From the NCBI GenBank assembly GCA_027491155.1, contig JAIXWR010000039.1, forward strand, positions 1 through 64,000: 64,000 bases of DNA. The letters are read 5' to 3'. Source of the stretch: Verrucomicrobiaceae bacterium. GTDB lineage: Bacteria; Verrucomicrobiota; Verrucomicrobiia; Verrucomicrobiales; Akkermansiaceae. The position numbers and the translations under genes are program-made. The notes below the pieces were generated by a model. That model did no database searches and was not told the DNA's origin. It worked only from the letters and a program-made list of their open reading frames with translations. Below, piece after piece: positions 35,192-46,766 of the stretch. The number at the start of each line of letters is the position of its first letter. Position 1 is the first letter of the stretch.

Positions 35192-35351
35192 TGTAGCGGC
35201 GGGTCTGCCTGTCCTTCGTAGCCTTGGCGGAGAAGGATGACCGCCGCACTCTGTAAATGAAGCCGCCCCCGCCGCCCGCTTCCGCTTTAATGGAGATGCC
35301 GCTTTCCCGTGGCTACATTTACAACCACCGGCGGTCGCAGACCGCCGCTAC
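35192..35351. repeat. cluster of GTAGCGG-type hairpin repeats and a CCTTCGTAGC repeat
   Basis: At 35329-35351 (minus strand) GTAGCGGCGGTCTGCGACC is followed by GCCG, a stem CGGCGGTC/GACCGCCG with loop TGC. At 35192 (plus) GTAGCGGCGGGTCTGCC is a broken copy of the same element. At 35213-35236 CCTTCGTAGCCTTGGCGG and AGAAGG form another hairpin, also found near 54428. The 207-bp gap between rsmD and the AsmA-like gene consists mainly of these. Confidence 0.65.
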
Positions 35352-40995: not shown

Positions 40996-42105
40996 ATGCC
41001 TGCCCGGATCCTCATTTGCACCGCCGCCTTCGGCGAAGGCCACAACAGCGCCGCCCGCAACCTCGCCCTCGCGCTGGAGGAAGCCGGGGCCGAAGTCCGT
41101 GTCTGCGACCCCTGCCTGCTCGGAGCCCCGGTCAGCACCCGCTGGATCTGCAAGGGCTACCGCCTCGTCACCACCCGCGCCCCGCGGCTCTGGCATTTCG
41201 TCTATCTGCGGACCGGCGATGTCGATTTCTCCAAGCAACGCATGCCCCTGATGCGCAAGCCGGAGCGCAAGCTCGGCGAACTCGTCGACACCTGGCACCC
41301 CGACGCCGTCGTCGCCACCTACCCGCTCTACCCCTACTTCCTCGAACGCCTGCTCGCCGGAAATCCCTCCCCGCCGAAGGTCTTCACCGTCGTCACCGAT
41401 TCCATCGAGATCAACGCCGCCTGGCTCAAGGCCCCGACCGCCGAGTGGATCGTCTCCGACCCCTTCACCCGCGACTCGATGGTCCGCGGCGGTCTCCCGG
41501 CCGAACGCGTGATCGATACCGGCTTCCCGGTCCACCCTGCCTTTTCGCGGATGACCCCGGTCGCCGCCGACGACCGCTGCGATCCCTTCCGCGTCCTCTT
41601 CTTCACCACCTCCCGCCGCCTCCAGGTCCGCCGCTTCGCCAAGGCCGTCCTCCAGGCCTCGCCGAAGACGCAGATCACCATCGTCCTCGGCAAGAACGTC
41701 CGCCACCTGTGGCCCCGGGCGAAGGAAATCCGCGACGCCTTCCCCGGCCGCGTGAAAATCAAGGGCTGGACCCGCAAGGTACCGCAACTCCTCAACTCCC
41801 ACCACCTCGTCGTCGGCAAGGCCGGCGGTGCGACCGTGCACGAGGCGATCGCCGCCCGCTGCCCGATGCTCGTCCACCACCTCGTCCCCGGCCAGGAGGA
41901 GGGCAATCTGCGCCTGCTCGAAGCGATCGGTGCCGGCAAACTCGCCGAAAGCCCGGAAGCCATCCGCAGCGCCGTCGCCGACCTCCTCGCCGACGACGCC
42001 GCCCTCTGGCGCTCCATGAAACGCAAGCTCGCCCTCCACGGCCGCAACGCCGGAGCCATCGCCGCCGCCCGGCACATCCTGGAGCGCTGCGGAAGTGCCA
42101 AGTGA
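40996..42105 (+). CDS. MGDG-synthase/MurG-like glycosyltransferase
   Basis: 369 residues from the ATG at 40996. The N-terminal MPARILICTAAFGEGHNSAA matches the MGDG-synthase N-domain (acceptor side), and the C-terminal half is GT28: LFFTTSRRLQVRRF, VVGKAGGATVHEAIAARCP and LVPGQEEGN. Such enzymes add galactose or glucose to diacylglycerol at the inner membrane, so a glycolipid synthase is likely. The final residues (RCGSAK) and the stop codon come from a heptad-word repeat, so the natural C-terminus may have been altered. The divergent neighbour starts 88 bp upstream. Confidence 0.82.
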   Translation: MPARILICTAAFGEGHNSAARNLALALEEAGAEVRVCDPCLLGAPVSTRWICKGYRLVTTRAPRLWHFVYLRTGDVDFSKQRMPLMRKPERKLGELVDTWHPDAVVATYPLYPYFLERLLAGNPSPPKVFTVVTDSIEINAAWLKAPTAEWIVSDPFTRDSMVRGGLPAERVIDTGFPVHPAFSRMTPVAADDRCDPFRVLFFTTSRRLQVRRFAKAVLQASPKTQITIVLGKNVRHLWPRAKEIRDAFPGRVKIKGWTRKVPQLLNSHHLVVGKAGGATVHEAIAARCPMLVHHLVPGQEEGNLRLLEAIGAGKLAESPEAIRSAVADLLADDAALWRSMKRKLALHGRNAGAIAAARHILERCGSAK

Positions 42106-42201
42106 GGAAGTGCCAAGTGCCAAGCGAAGACCGGCCGGCACGTCCCACTTGATCTGCCTTGGCATTTCTTTGGCACTTGGAACTTCGAACTTGGAACTTC
42201 A
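42088..42201. repeat. heptad-word palindrome, AAGTGCC/AAGTTCC type
   Basis: The left arm (42094-42129) is made of words AAGTGCC, AAGTGAGG, AAGTGCC, AAGTGCC. The right arm (42145-42200), read on the minus strand, gives GAAGTTC, CAAGTTC, GAAGTTC, CAAGTGC and further variants. The arms are imperfect complements. The first word supplies the last codons and TGA stop of the glycosyltransferase, and the right arm ends 17 bases before the HAD gene. Confidence 0.8.
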
Positions 42202-42217
42202 GGCTCCCGCGCGCCCC

Positions 42218-42817
42218 ATGACTTTCCTCTTCGACATCGGCAAGGTCCTCCTCGACTTCCACTTCGAGCCATCCCTCGCGAAACTCCTCCCGCCCGAAAC
42301 GCCCGACGCCCTCCAGCGTCTCTCCGTCTTGTTAGAGAAGAAGGACGACTTCGAAGCCGGCCGCATCGCGGTCGAGGAATACGTCCCCTGGGCCATCGAA
42401 CGCCTCGGTAGCGAGGTCGCGCACGAGGACTTCCTCCACGCCTGGCGGAACATCTTCACGCCCGTCGATCCGATGTGGCGGGTCGTCGAATCCCTCGCCG
42501 CCGGCGGCCACCGGCTGATCCTGTTCTCCAACACCAACGGCATCCACTGCCCGTGGATCTTCGAGAACTACGAGATCTTCCGCCACTTTCCGGAAGCCGT
42601 GCTTTCCTTCGAAGCCGGATCGATCAAGCCCGAGCCGGAGATCTACCACCACGCCATCCAGGTCCACGGCCTCAAGCCCGCCGAAACCCGCTACATCGAC
42701 GATCTCCCTGCCAACATCGAGACCGGCAAGCAACTCGGCTTCCGCACTTGGCAATACGACCTCAACGACCATCCCGCCTTCGAACGCTGGCTCTCCACCG
42801 AACTGATGGCCGGTTAG
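42218..42817 (+). CDS. HAD-family phosphatase, YihX-like
   Basis: 199 residues from the ATG at 42218. Motif I reads FDIGKVLLDF: the nucleophile Asp is present but the second Asp is replaced by Gly, as in the YihX-type alpha-glucose-1-phosphatases (FDLGNV). Motif II is LILFSNTNG, motif III KPEPEIY, and motif IV RYIDDLPANIETG. Cytoplasmic small-molecule phosphatase; a sugar phosphate substrate is likely from the subfamily but not shown. It is cut off from the upstream glycosyltransferase by a word palindrome and followed by another. Confidence 0.82.
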   Translation: MTFLFDIGKVLLDFHFEPSLAKLLPPETPDALQRLSVLLEKKDDFEAGRIAVEEYVPWAIERLGSEVAHEDFLHAWRNIFTPVDPMWRVVESLAAGGHRLILFSNTNGIHCPWIFENYEIFRHFPEAVLSFEAGSIKPEPEIYHHAIQVHGLKPAETRYIDDLPANIETGKQLGFRTWQYDLNDHPAFERWLSTELMAG

Positions 42818-42818
42818 C

Positions 42819-42868
42819 CGGTGTTTCGGTGGACCGGTGGACCGACCTACCGATTCACCGAAAAACCG
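42819..42868. repeat. octad-word palindrome, CGGTGGAC type
   Basis: Eight-base words on the plus strand: CGGTGTTT, CGGTGGAC, CGGTGGAC, CGAC. On the minus strand: CGGTTTTT, CGGTGAAT, CGGTAGGT, CGGTCCAC, CGGTCCAC, CGAAACAC. It is compact, with the arms meeting near 42843. It lies between the convergent ends of the HAD gene and the next gene and could act as a two-way terminator. Confidence 0.7.
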
Positions 42869-46055: not shown

Positions 46056-46595
46056 ATGCAGCCCGCCCTGCTCGACAGCCTCGATTTCTCCGTGGTCCGC
46101 GACCTCCGCAAGCGCGAGGGCCTGACCCTGGACGCGCTGTCGGCCCGCTGCGGGATCTCGATCTCCGTTCTCTCAAAACTGGAGCGGAACCAGAATCCCG
46201 TCGAGCTGGAAACCCTTTACCGGATCGCCCGCGCCTTCGGACTGTCCGCCTCCGACCTGCTCTCGCTGGCCGAATCCGTCGCCGCCCATCGCAAGTCCGC
46301 CACCCGCTACCGTTCCGGGCCCTTCGACTTCGAGAAGCTCTCGTTCCAAGGCATCGACTGCTTCCACGCCACCGCCAAGGCCGGCGGCTCGCTGACTCAT
46401 CCGGAAGCCCACGGCGACGACCATGAGATCTGCTGGGTCCTCCGCGGCCGCATCGCCATCACCCTCCCCCGCGAACGCCACGAACTCGCCGCCGGCGAAG
46501 CACTGAAGTTCGACGCCATGCTGGAGCACACCTACGAGATCCTCGAAGACGCCGAACTCACCATCGTCCACCTCACCAAGCAGCACCGCTTTTAG
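46056..46595 (+). CDS. XRE-family regulator with C-terminal cupin
   Basis: 179 residues from the ATG at 46056. The helix-turn-helix is at about 14-70 (VVRDLRKREGLTLDALSARC, SISVLSKLERNQNPVELETL). A cupin domain fills about 95-178 (DDHEICWVLRGRIAITL, LAAGEALKFDAMLEHTYEIL) and probably senses a small molecule such as a sugar. It is divergent from the isomerase and Gfo/Idh/MocA operon and precedes the GH88 gene, both likely targets. XRE-cupin proteins usually autoregulate. Confidence 0.88.
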   Translation: MQPALLDSLDFSVVRDLRKREGLTLDALSARCGISISVLSKLERNQNPVELETLYRIARAFGLSASDLLSLAESVAAHRKSATRYRSGPFDFEKLSFQGIDCFHATAKAGGSLTHPEAHGDDHEICWVLRGRIAITLPRERHELAAGEALKFDAMLEHTYEILEDAELTIVHLTKQHRF

Positions 46596-46608
46596 AGCCG
46601 AAAACCGA

Positions 46609-46747
46609 GTTGAGAGTCTATGGTTGATTGTTGATGGTTCTGAATGCGGGATTGATGCCGCACGCGGGGCTCGCCCCGCACCACGTTGCGATTTCGAAGC
46701 AAACTGATCTGGATCTACCATCAACCATCCACTCTCCACCATCAACT
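46609..46747. repeat. heptad-word palindrome, GTTGATG type, with inner hairpin
   Basis: The left arm (46609-46639) is in 7-bp words GTTGAGA, GTCTATG, GTTGATT, GTTGATG, GTT. The right arm (46717-46747), on the minus strand, reads GTTGATG, GTGGAGA, GTGGATG, GTTGATG. In the loop a separate perfect hairpin GCGGGGCTCGCCCCGC (46664-46679) occurs. The arms end 19 bases before the GH88 start codon. Confidence 0.8.
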
Positions 46748-46766
46748 TTCCCACCAAGCAGAACCC

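Follow-up and report, generated by a model that had tools for sequence, protein, structure and literature searches.

The window, which is the whole stretch of 64,000 nucleotides that was analysed, carries on its forward strand an MGDG-synthase-like glycosyltransferase gene at 40996-42105 and a gene for a HAD-like hydrolase at 42218-42817, and the gap between the two holds a block of short repeated words. The glycosyltransferase gene runs from an ATG at 40996 to a TGA at 42103-42105 and encodes a protein of 369 aa, which matches the Pfam family MGDG_synth (PF06925, E 1e-10) and terminates in HILERC-GSAK. The downstream HAD-like gene starts with the ATG at 42218 and is the neighbour in many, not all, relatives. 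The left, stop-side half-unit of the block (42092-42133, reverse strand) has its outward end at the 3' end of the glycosyltransferase gene, while the right, start-side half-unit (42166-42200, forward strand) ends 17 nt before the ATG of the HAD-like gene; the arms are separated by a loop (42134-42165), and loops as a class were poorly conserved. A model of the half-unit, referred to as model R1, gave 45.4 bits (E 1.1e-12) for the left arm and 42.2 bits (E 1.1e-11) for the right arm, both of which were among the 35 copies used to build it. The original prediction, made from the letters of the window, had placed the repeat at 42088-42201, with one arm approaching the next start codon; the repeat and the position of this arm were confirmed, and the repeat proper was narrowed to 42092-42200.

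The end of the glycosyltransferase gene lies inside the left arm. From 42088 the codons read TGC, GGA, AGT, GCC and AAG, followed by TGA at 42103-42105, and the outer word AAGTGCCAAGTGA (42093-42105) contains all of AGT-GCC-AAG-TGA, in agreement with the prediction that the last codons and the TGA are located within an AAGTGCC word block. The further claim that the repeat supplied GSAK (42091-42105 on the forward strand, stop included) held for S, A and K, which are wholly repeat-encoded as is the stop, but not for G, whose codon has only one base in common with the word. The HAD reading frame remains open across the entire repeat, up to a GTG inside the left arm (42095-42817). The N-terminal extension that would run through the repeat is probably unused, as the relatives start at the methionine of MTFLFDIGK.

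Sites matching AAGTGCCAAG with at most one mismatch were found eight times in the window against 2.12 expected, a number reached by 0 of 100 shuffles, and seven of the eight fall in the block at 42092-42200. Genome-wide, AAGTGCCAAGTGCCAAG (at most two mismatches) occurred at 107 sites, compared to one for the reversed control. An Rfam search of the window returned 0 matches at gathering scores. The repeat word is AAGTKCC/GGMACTT with a word step of 7 nt, and the half-unit of approximately 31 nt consists of TTGGCACTTGGMACTTC, then 2 or 3 nt, then ACTTGGAACTTC. This consensus was derived from 35 three-word arms, namely all those in 1.6 Mb of the source genome (G000) that fitted one search pattern. 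The variable base depended on its position, being C in 33/35 inner words and A in 29/35 outer words, which points to a defined unit rather than free slippage.

To describe the distribution of the unit, model R1, which uses sequence only, was applied to the genomes of the genus with at most 150 candidates scored per genome; it identified 112 half-units in G000 (including the copies from which it was built), 95 in G010, 85 in G017, 58 in G006 and 0-22 in each of the other 14 genomes. Matches were obtained in 15 of the 18 genus genomes, leaving three without a match. The word itself was present in all 14 sampled genomes of the genus, at 1-114 sites each. Among the other genera of the family, it was seen in 9 of 103 genomes (10 sites), and the reversed control in 6 genomes (8 sites), so that in the other genera sampled the word stands at background level. 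Luteolibacter marinus and Haloferula sp. BvORR071 are among the named relatives at the locus, and the genus is probably Luteolibacter as GTDB defines it. Five forms of the repeat word were searched in the open-licence texts of PubMed Central and no publication was found; within that literature we found no description of this word family, while stop-supplying repeats themselves are already known.

The placement of the repeat relative to genes was analysed in 1.6 Mb of G000, where genes were called by a simple in-house caller and start sites are uncertain by some codons. A total of 39 clusters with at least two words were located, 36 of them between called genes (28 in tandem gaps, seven in divergent gaps and one in a convergent gap) and three inside one ORF. 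Some of the intergenic clusters overlapped a gene end by up to 13 bases, and the suggestion that such repeats are tolerated at gene edges was therefore borne out. Both arms were present in 9/36 intergenic clusters and a single arm in 27/36. When the outward ends of the 45 arms were considered, 28 pointed toward starts (22 within 30 nt) and 17 toward stops; for the one-armed copies alone, the numbers were 19 and 8. The distance to the start codon was exactly 12 nt in 6/23 cases in G000 and in 9/22 in G010, the loci being partly the same. Motifs resembling the Shine-Dalgarno (SD) site preceded only 76/914 genes (8.3%), compared to 15.8% of coding control pieces, which suggests that a ribosome-binding site would not necessarily be lost where an arm adjoins a start. 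Inverted 8-mer repeats were found in 27.9% of gaps against 12.9% of coding pieces (11.5% of shuffles). Direct 8-mer repeats occurred in 22.6% of 627 gaps and 21.9% of coding pieces (9.7% of shuffles), and given these similar rates, direct repeats alone do not distinguish gaps from coding DNA.

The three intragenic clusters lie outside the window in G000 (C23:115505-121271), where three half-units are read in frame inside a 1922-aa fused ORF, named UvrA-like by eye, and yield peptides of the EVPSEKCQVPKK type. A locus in G004 (L245) resembles this context by eye, and at least one in-frame half-unit may be common to both.

Gene ends were scanned for a word located between 30 nt before and 11 nt after the stop. 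In the 1.6 Mb of G000, 17 gene ends adjoined the word, and two placements recurred: counted back from the end of the stop codon, the word began 13 nt upstream in 6/17 (offset -13) and 1 nt upstream in 5/17 (offset -1). The six offset -13 genes read S-A/S-K-stop at the same place in the word, with the C-termini GSAK, RSAK, RSAK, KSSK, VSSK and ESSK, and their fully supplied stops, TGA in five cases and TAG in one, lie inside the outer word; in the five offset -1 genes the A of TGA is in common with the word. Ends of the S[AS]K-stop type were found in 7 of the 1088 called genes, and six of these seven arise through the word. The two genes that converge at C27:143872-143948 both take their stop from the word in this way. 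The same placements were observed in 0.70 Mb of G010 (offset -13 twice and offset -1 three times, among 13 gene ends), where gene ends less than 200 bases from the end of a sequence piece were dropped, thereby excluding the G010 copy of the glycosyltransferase gene.

The glycosyltransferase gene was compared with its orthologues to observe which ends occur with and without the repeat. Three of the 30 gene copies, own included, end in GSAK, namely those of G000, G010 and G006. Both arms are present in G000 and G010, whereas G006 holds a remnant of the left arm that retains GGAAGTGCCAAGTGAGG and is followed by other DNA, and the start of its HAD gene was not found within 3 kb past this remnant. 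In the nearer relatives the protein is similar through HILER-C and variable after it, with ends such as CKGSAQG, CETGK, TRLAR and ASLPTTK as well as long tails. The end in G008, KGSAQG, bears a partial likeness to GSAK and contains no word. The start-side arm in G012 (L. marinus) is decayed, matching at 23/29 positions, a match that 0 of 5000 single-base shuffles reached and that model R1 misses even at E 10; no stop-side arm was seen there, and the tail differs from GSAK. These results agree with the proposal that the repeat gave the gene its short end, as the orthologues without the word do not end in GSAK and no repeat-free copy sharing the C-terminus was encountered among the 30. It had also been expected that ends without the repeat would be different and longer; they were different, and they were longer in G012 and G009 but similar or shorter in G004 and G011.

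A tree of the gene, in which 3/16 inner branches were well supported, placed G006 outside a group that contains G000 and G010 together with three species devoid of the repeat at this locus (L035-L037, no model R1 match). Given this topology and the weak support, the tree does not order gain and loss, and loss is as possible as gain. Among the close relatives there was no empty site with otherwise matching flanks at this locus, and the two nearest share the stop-side word. The change of tail was probably neutral.

A second gene, at C3:353272, is more informative on the order of events. In G000 its protein ends in AAEKSSK and its TAG is taken from a stop-side arm, while the ends in G006 and G010, translated by eye from the alignments, are AAERGT and AAERDAQ, with only start-side words present. 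The stop-side arm is found in G000 alone among the three species compared and, as read from these alignments, represents either a gain in the G000 lineage or two losses. We infer that the arm arrived after the gene, which is better seen at C3:353272 than at the glycosyltransferase locus.

The prediction that word repeats are expanding or mobile can be divided in two. Expansion is supported, since half-unit numbers differ among close relatives and the stop-side arm at C3:353272 is peculiar to one of three species. The cluster at C5:127404 has 3+3 words in G000 and 3+6 in G010, the one at C3:197129 has 3+8 and 6+5, respectively, and a G010 copy (L220:2528) is absent from G000. Mobility, if taken to mean active transposition, was not demonstrated: most copies that could be compared also occur in the closest relative, and no enzyme that would mobilise them could be linked. 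Of the 39 G000 clusters, 18 could be placed in G010 by both flanks, and all 18 have words at the G010 site; the other 21, lacking a two-sided match, were excluded from the conservation counts. In the opposite direction, 14/16 G010 clusters mapped back hold words in G000, and one exception (L203:11186) was a mapping fault. Given the fact that the G010 and G006 pieces were mostly chosen for holding the word, these presence counts are biased upward, and the sharing of clusters between G000 and G010 does not speak for frequent movement. No target duplication could be read, because none of the complete two-armed copies yielded a clean empty site.

Drawing on the anatomy of the unit, its dispersal within one genus, its favoured locations, the recurrent use of one internal stop, the arm differences between close species and the conservation of the words described below, we consider it likely that a genus-specific short interspersed repeat is present here as a two-armed copy, that its outward ends lie on gene boundaries and that its internal stop is adopted by neighbouring genes. 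A half-unit of approximately 31 nt would settle between two adjacent genes so that its outward end meets a gene boundary. Where it abuts a 3' gene end in a suitable frame, the outer word A-AGT-KCC-AAG-TGA would be read as Ser-Ala/Ser-Lys-stop, and the arm would take the place of the old stop and of a few weakly conserved terminal residues. The second half-unit would come to lie just upstream of the next start at low cost, since the genes are mostly without Shine-Dalgarno sites. The half-units would have been copied by duplication and inverted duplication, and some long-range copying process would have spread them.

The conservation of the repeat was assessed at the 18 loci comparable between G000 and G010, in alignments anchored on the words. 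The words were identical at 525/540 positions (variable base 63/72), compared to 973/1055 in the coding flank, 407/508 in the other noncoding flank, 129/163 in the spacers and 205/274 in the loops, the least conserved class. The 27 outer words that the selection pattern for the G010 pieces did not cover gave 208/216 (variable base 21/27). On these alignments the words are better conserved than the adjoining coding DNA, in contrast to the loops and spacers. Such sameness of the words could result from selection on them or from gene conversion among copies.

It is possible, albeit doubtful, that a protein or the ribosome binds the start-side words as a functional element of the 5' leader, and that this function is the reason for the spread or persistence of the copies, with the stop-side arms as by-products. 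The conservation of the words relative to coding DNA, which extends to the outer words not used for piece selection, would fit this reading, as would the excess of one-armed copies facing starts, the recurrent distance of exactly 12 nt and the rarity of SD-like motifs. Gene conversion could equally keep the words alike, however, and the alignments were anchored on the words; moreover, 17/45 arms face stops, and three genomes of the genus have no model R1 match. Only tentatively do we extend the leader reading to a genus-specific element, recognised by a protein or the ribosome and copied before dozens of genes, whose inverted copies may have rewritten upstream gene ends, related species having done likewise with unrelated words at the same junction. 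If functional, the start-side words would offer a handle on translation start in a group in which Shine-Dalgarno sites are rare.

That the repeat is a REP or MITE mobilised by a genome-encoded tyrosine (Y1) transposase appears unlikely. Y1_Tnp matches do occur in 18/18 genus genomes, with 13 in G000, 28 in G006 and 19 in G010, but the consensus of the 35 half-units has no GTAG or CGTC tag at the repeat end, and no multi-word cluster was located near the three Y1 genes checked in G000. Near the Y1 gene on C3 there are two single words, at a distance of about 1 kb or less. The Y1 enzymes may instead act on a GTAG-containing palindrome that is distinct from the word repeat.

A further explanation, to which we give little credence, is an intercistronic RNA hairpin kept for its structure as a terminator, attenuator or mRNA-end protector, with the overlap of the stop resulting from compactness. 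The arms of the block at 42092-42200 fold well (z -4.87, 0/200 shuffles) and nine of the 36 intergenic clusters are two-armed, yet the remaining 27 are one-armed, one cluster in 36 lies between convergent genes against a background of 103/741 gaps, the loops are the least conserved class, and by eye the right arm is followed by AGGCTCCCG without a T-run. The variable base also differs without its partner; the left arm at C27:149968 of G006 is one example. As most copies are one-armed and the variable base changes without its partner, selection is probably not acting on the hairpin. Two specific candidates were rejected by eye: an intrinsic terminator, in which a T-run would have to follow a GC-rich hairpin and does not do so after the right arm, and a sigma-54-like promoter (TGGCAC), which has no second box, most start-facing arms lying 1-30 nt from the start codon. 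Purely local heptamer slippage at each site without dispersal, with which the 7-nt word steps and the half-unit numbers varying between relatives would agree, is very improbable, since one 31-nt consensus with position-specific bases recurs at dozens of unrelated gaps and slippage alone would not create the same word everywhere.

Other word repeats were identified at gene junctions. In G005, an Akkermansiaceae MAG (L066) with 73% identity in the glycosyltransferase protein, the gene ends GLKT-stop, and the L, K and T codons together with the TG of TGA lie inside an unrelated 13-nt word, GACTCAAGACTTG, a perfect inverse of which is found 7 nt before the HAD start. With at most one mismatch, GACTCAAGACTTG occurred at 27 sites in G006 and 26 in G008, against 2 and 0 for the controls, and was near the control level in some other genus genomes. 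Gene junctions may thus have been filled repeatedly by unrelated word repeats, and an unrelated word pair reaching into the stop at the same junction in another lineage would point to gaps as recurrent landing places.

Several further repeats were seen alongside. One gap beside a start codon carries three different vocabularies with inverted arms, at L120:557-722 in G006, L203:10263-10423 in G010 and C3:354167-354264 in G000. In the gap between the same two genes as in the window, L044 and L046 (G013 and G017) have ATTCGTC-type words before the HAD start codon. Within the window, the HAD stop abuts another inverted word repeat, with CGGTGTTTCGGTGG, at 42815-42868, and the G010 gap after the HAD gene contains a long CACCGAA heptamer array. 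The 167-base gap at 46595-46761 holds GTTGATGGT-type words and inverted arms and is absent from the orthologous gap in G010, where the flanks join directly. The GTAG-containing palindrome, with TCCCCCGTAGCCTTGGCG, is nested in two word repeats, at C5:36042 and C5:46462, and is absent from G010 at the first; a likeness to it with one mismatch lies in the window at 35212.

The repeat can be compared with several known systems. Rickettsia palindromic elements are ~150 bp long and nearly half of them lie inside ORFs, according to the part of a review consulted (PMC10969869). The in-frame reading of an element as an extra peptide has its counterpart in the three half-units of the UvrA-like ORF, but only 3/39 clusters here are inside an ORF, all in one gene. 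The STRR heptamers of cyanobacteria resemble the present repeat as tandem heptamers dispersed between genes, with another sequence and another host. The portion of PMC4210602 considered, on tandem repeats in a Verrucomicrobium, contained nothing resembling this word repeat.

The TAACTGA heptamers of Beggiatoaceae face start codons, and 14 sets overlap the upstream ORF, as given in the part of PMC4679880 used. Both repeats are mostly intergenic (36/39 here) and occur where SD sites are rare (76/914 here). The TAACTGA sets are mostly oriented to the nearby start; of the 45 arms here, 28 face a start and 17 a stop. The present repeat differs in its word (AAGTKCC/GGMACTT), in the division of the half-unit into an inner and an outer word, and in the second, inverted arm that it often carries. 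The string 'Verrucomicro' occurs 0 times in the text of PMC4679880.

The closest resemblance in stop supply is to the GTAG/CGTC-tagged REPs. The sections of PMC3733652 that we draw on describe short, dispersed repeats of dyad symmetry located at the edges of genes, as here, state that the ends of GTAG REPs often provide a stop codon to flanking ORFs, and report that Opitutus terrae, a member of the Verrucomicrobia, is rich in them. Several differences were nevertheless evident. A REP has a stem of 5-13 bp and a loop of 2-20 bases (PMC3733652, Table 1), while the word-array arms here are ~32 nt apart and 27/36 copies are one-armed; the unit is a 31-nt word array with the supplied stop inside its outer word; and the half-unit consensus ends in ACTTGGAACTTC without a terminal GTAG or CGTC tag. 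REPs also flank a transposase (RAYT) gene; of the 13 Y1_Tnp matches in the genome, the three checked had no multi-word cluster nearby, and one of them had the two single words on C3. Lacking both the REP tag and the TAACTGA word, the repeat is filed under neither REPs nor TAACTGA heptamers. It is a word-built variant of the stop-supplying repeats of the GTAG-REP kind, in which the supply of a stop is itself not new, and it offers a clear example, open to counting, of a dispersed repeat that determines how proteins end, with six genes in 1.6 Mb sharing the same borrowed S-A/S-K-stop.
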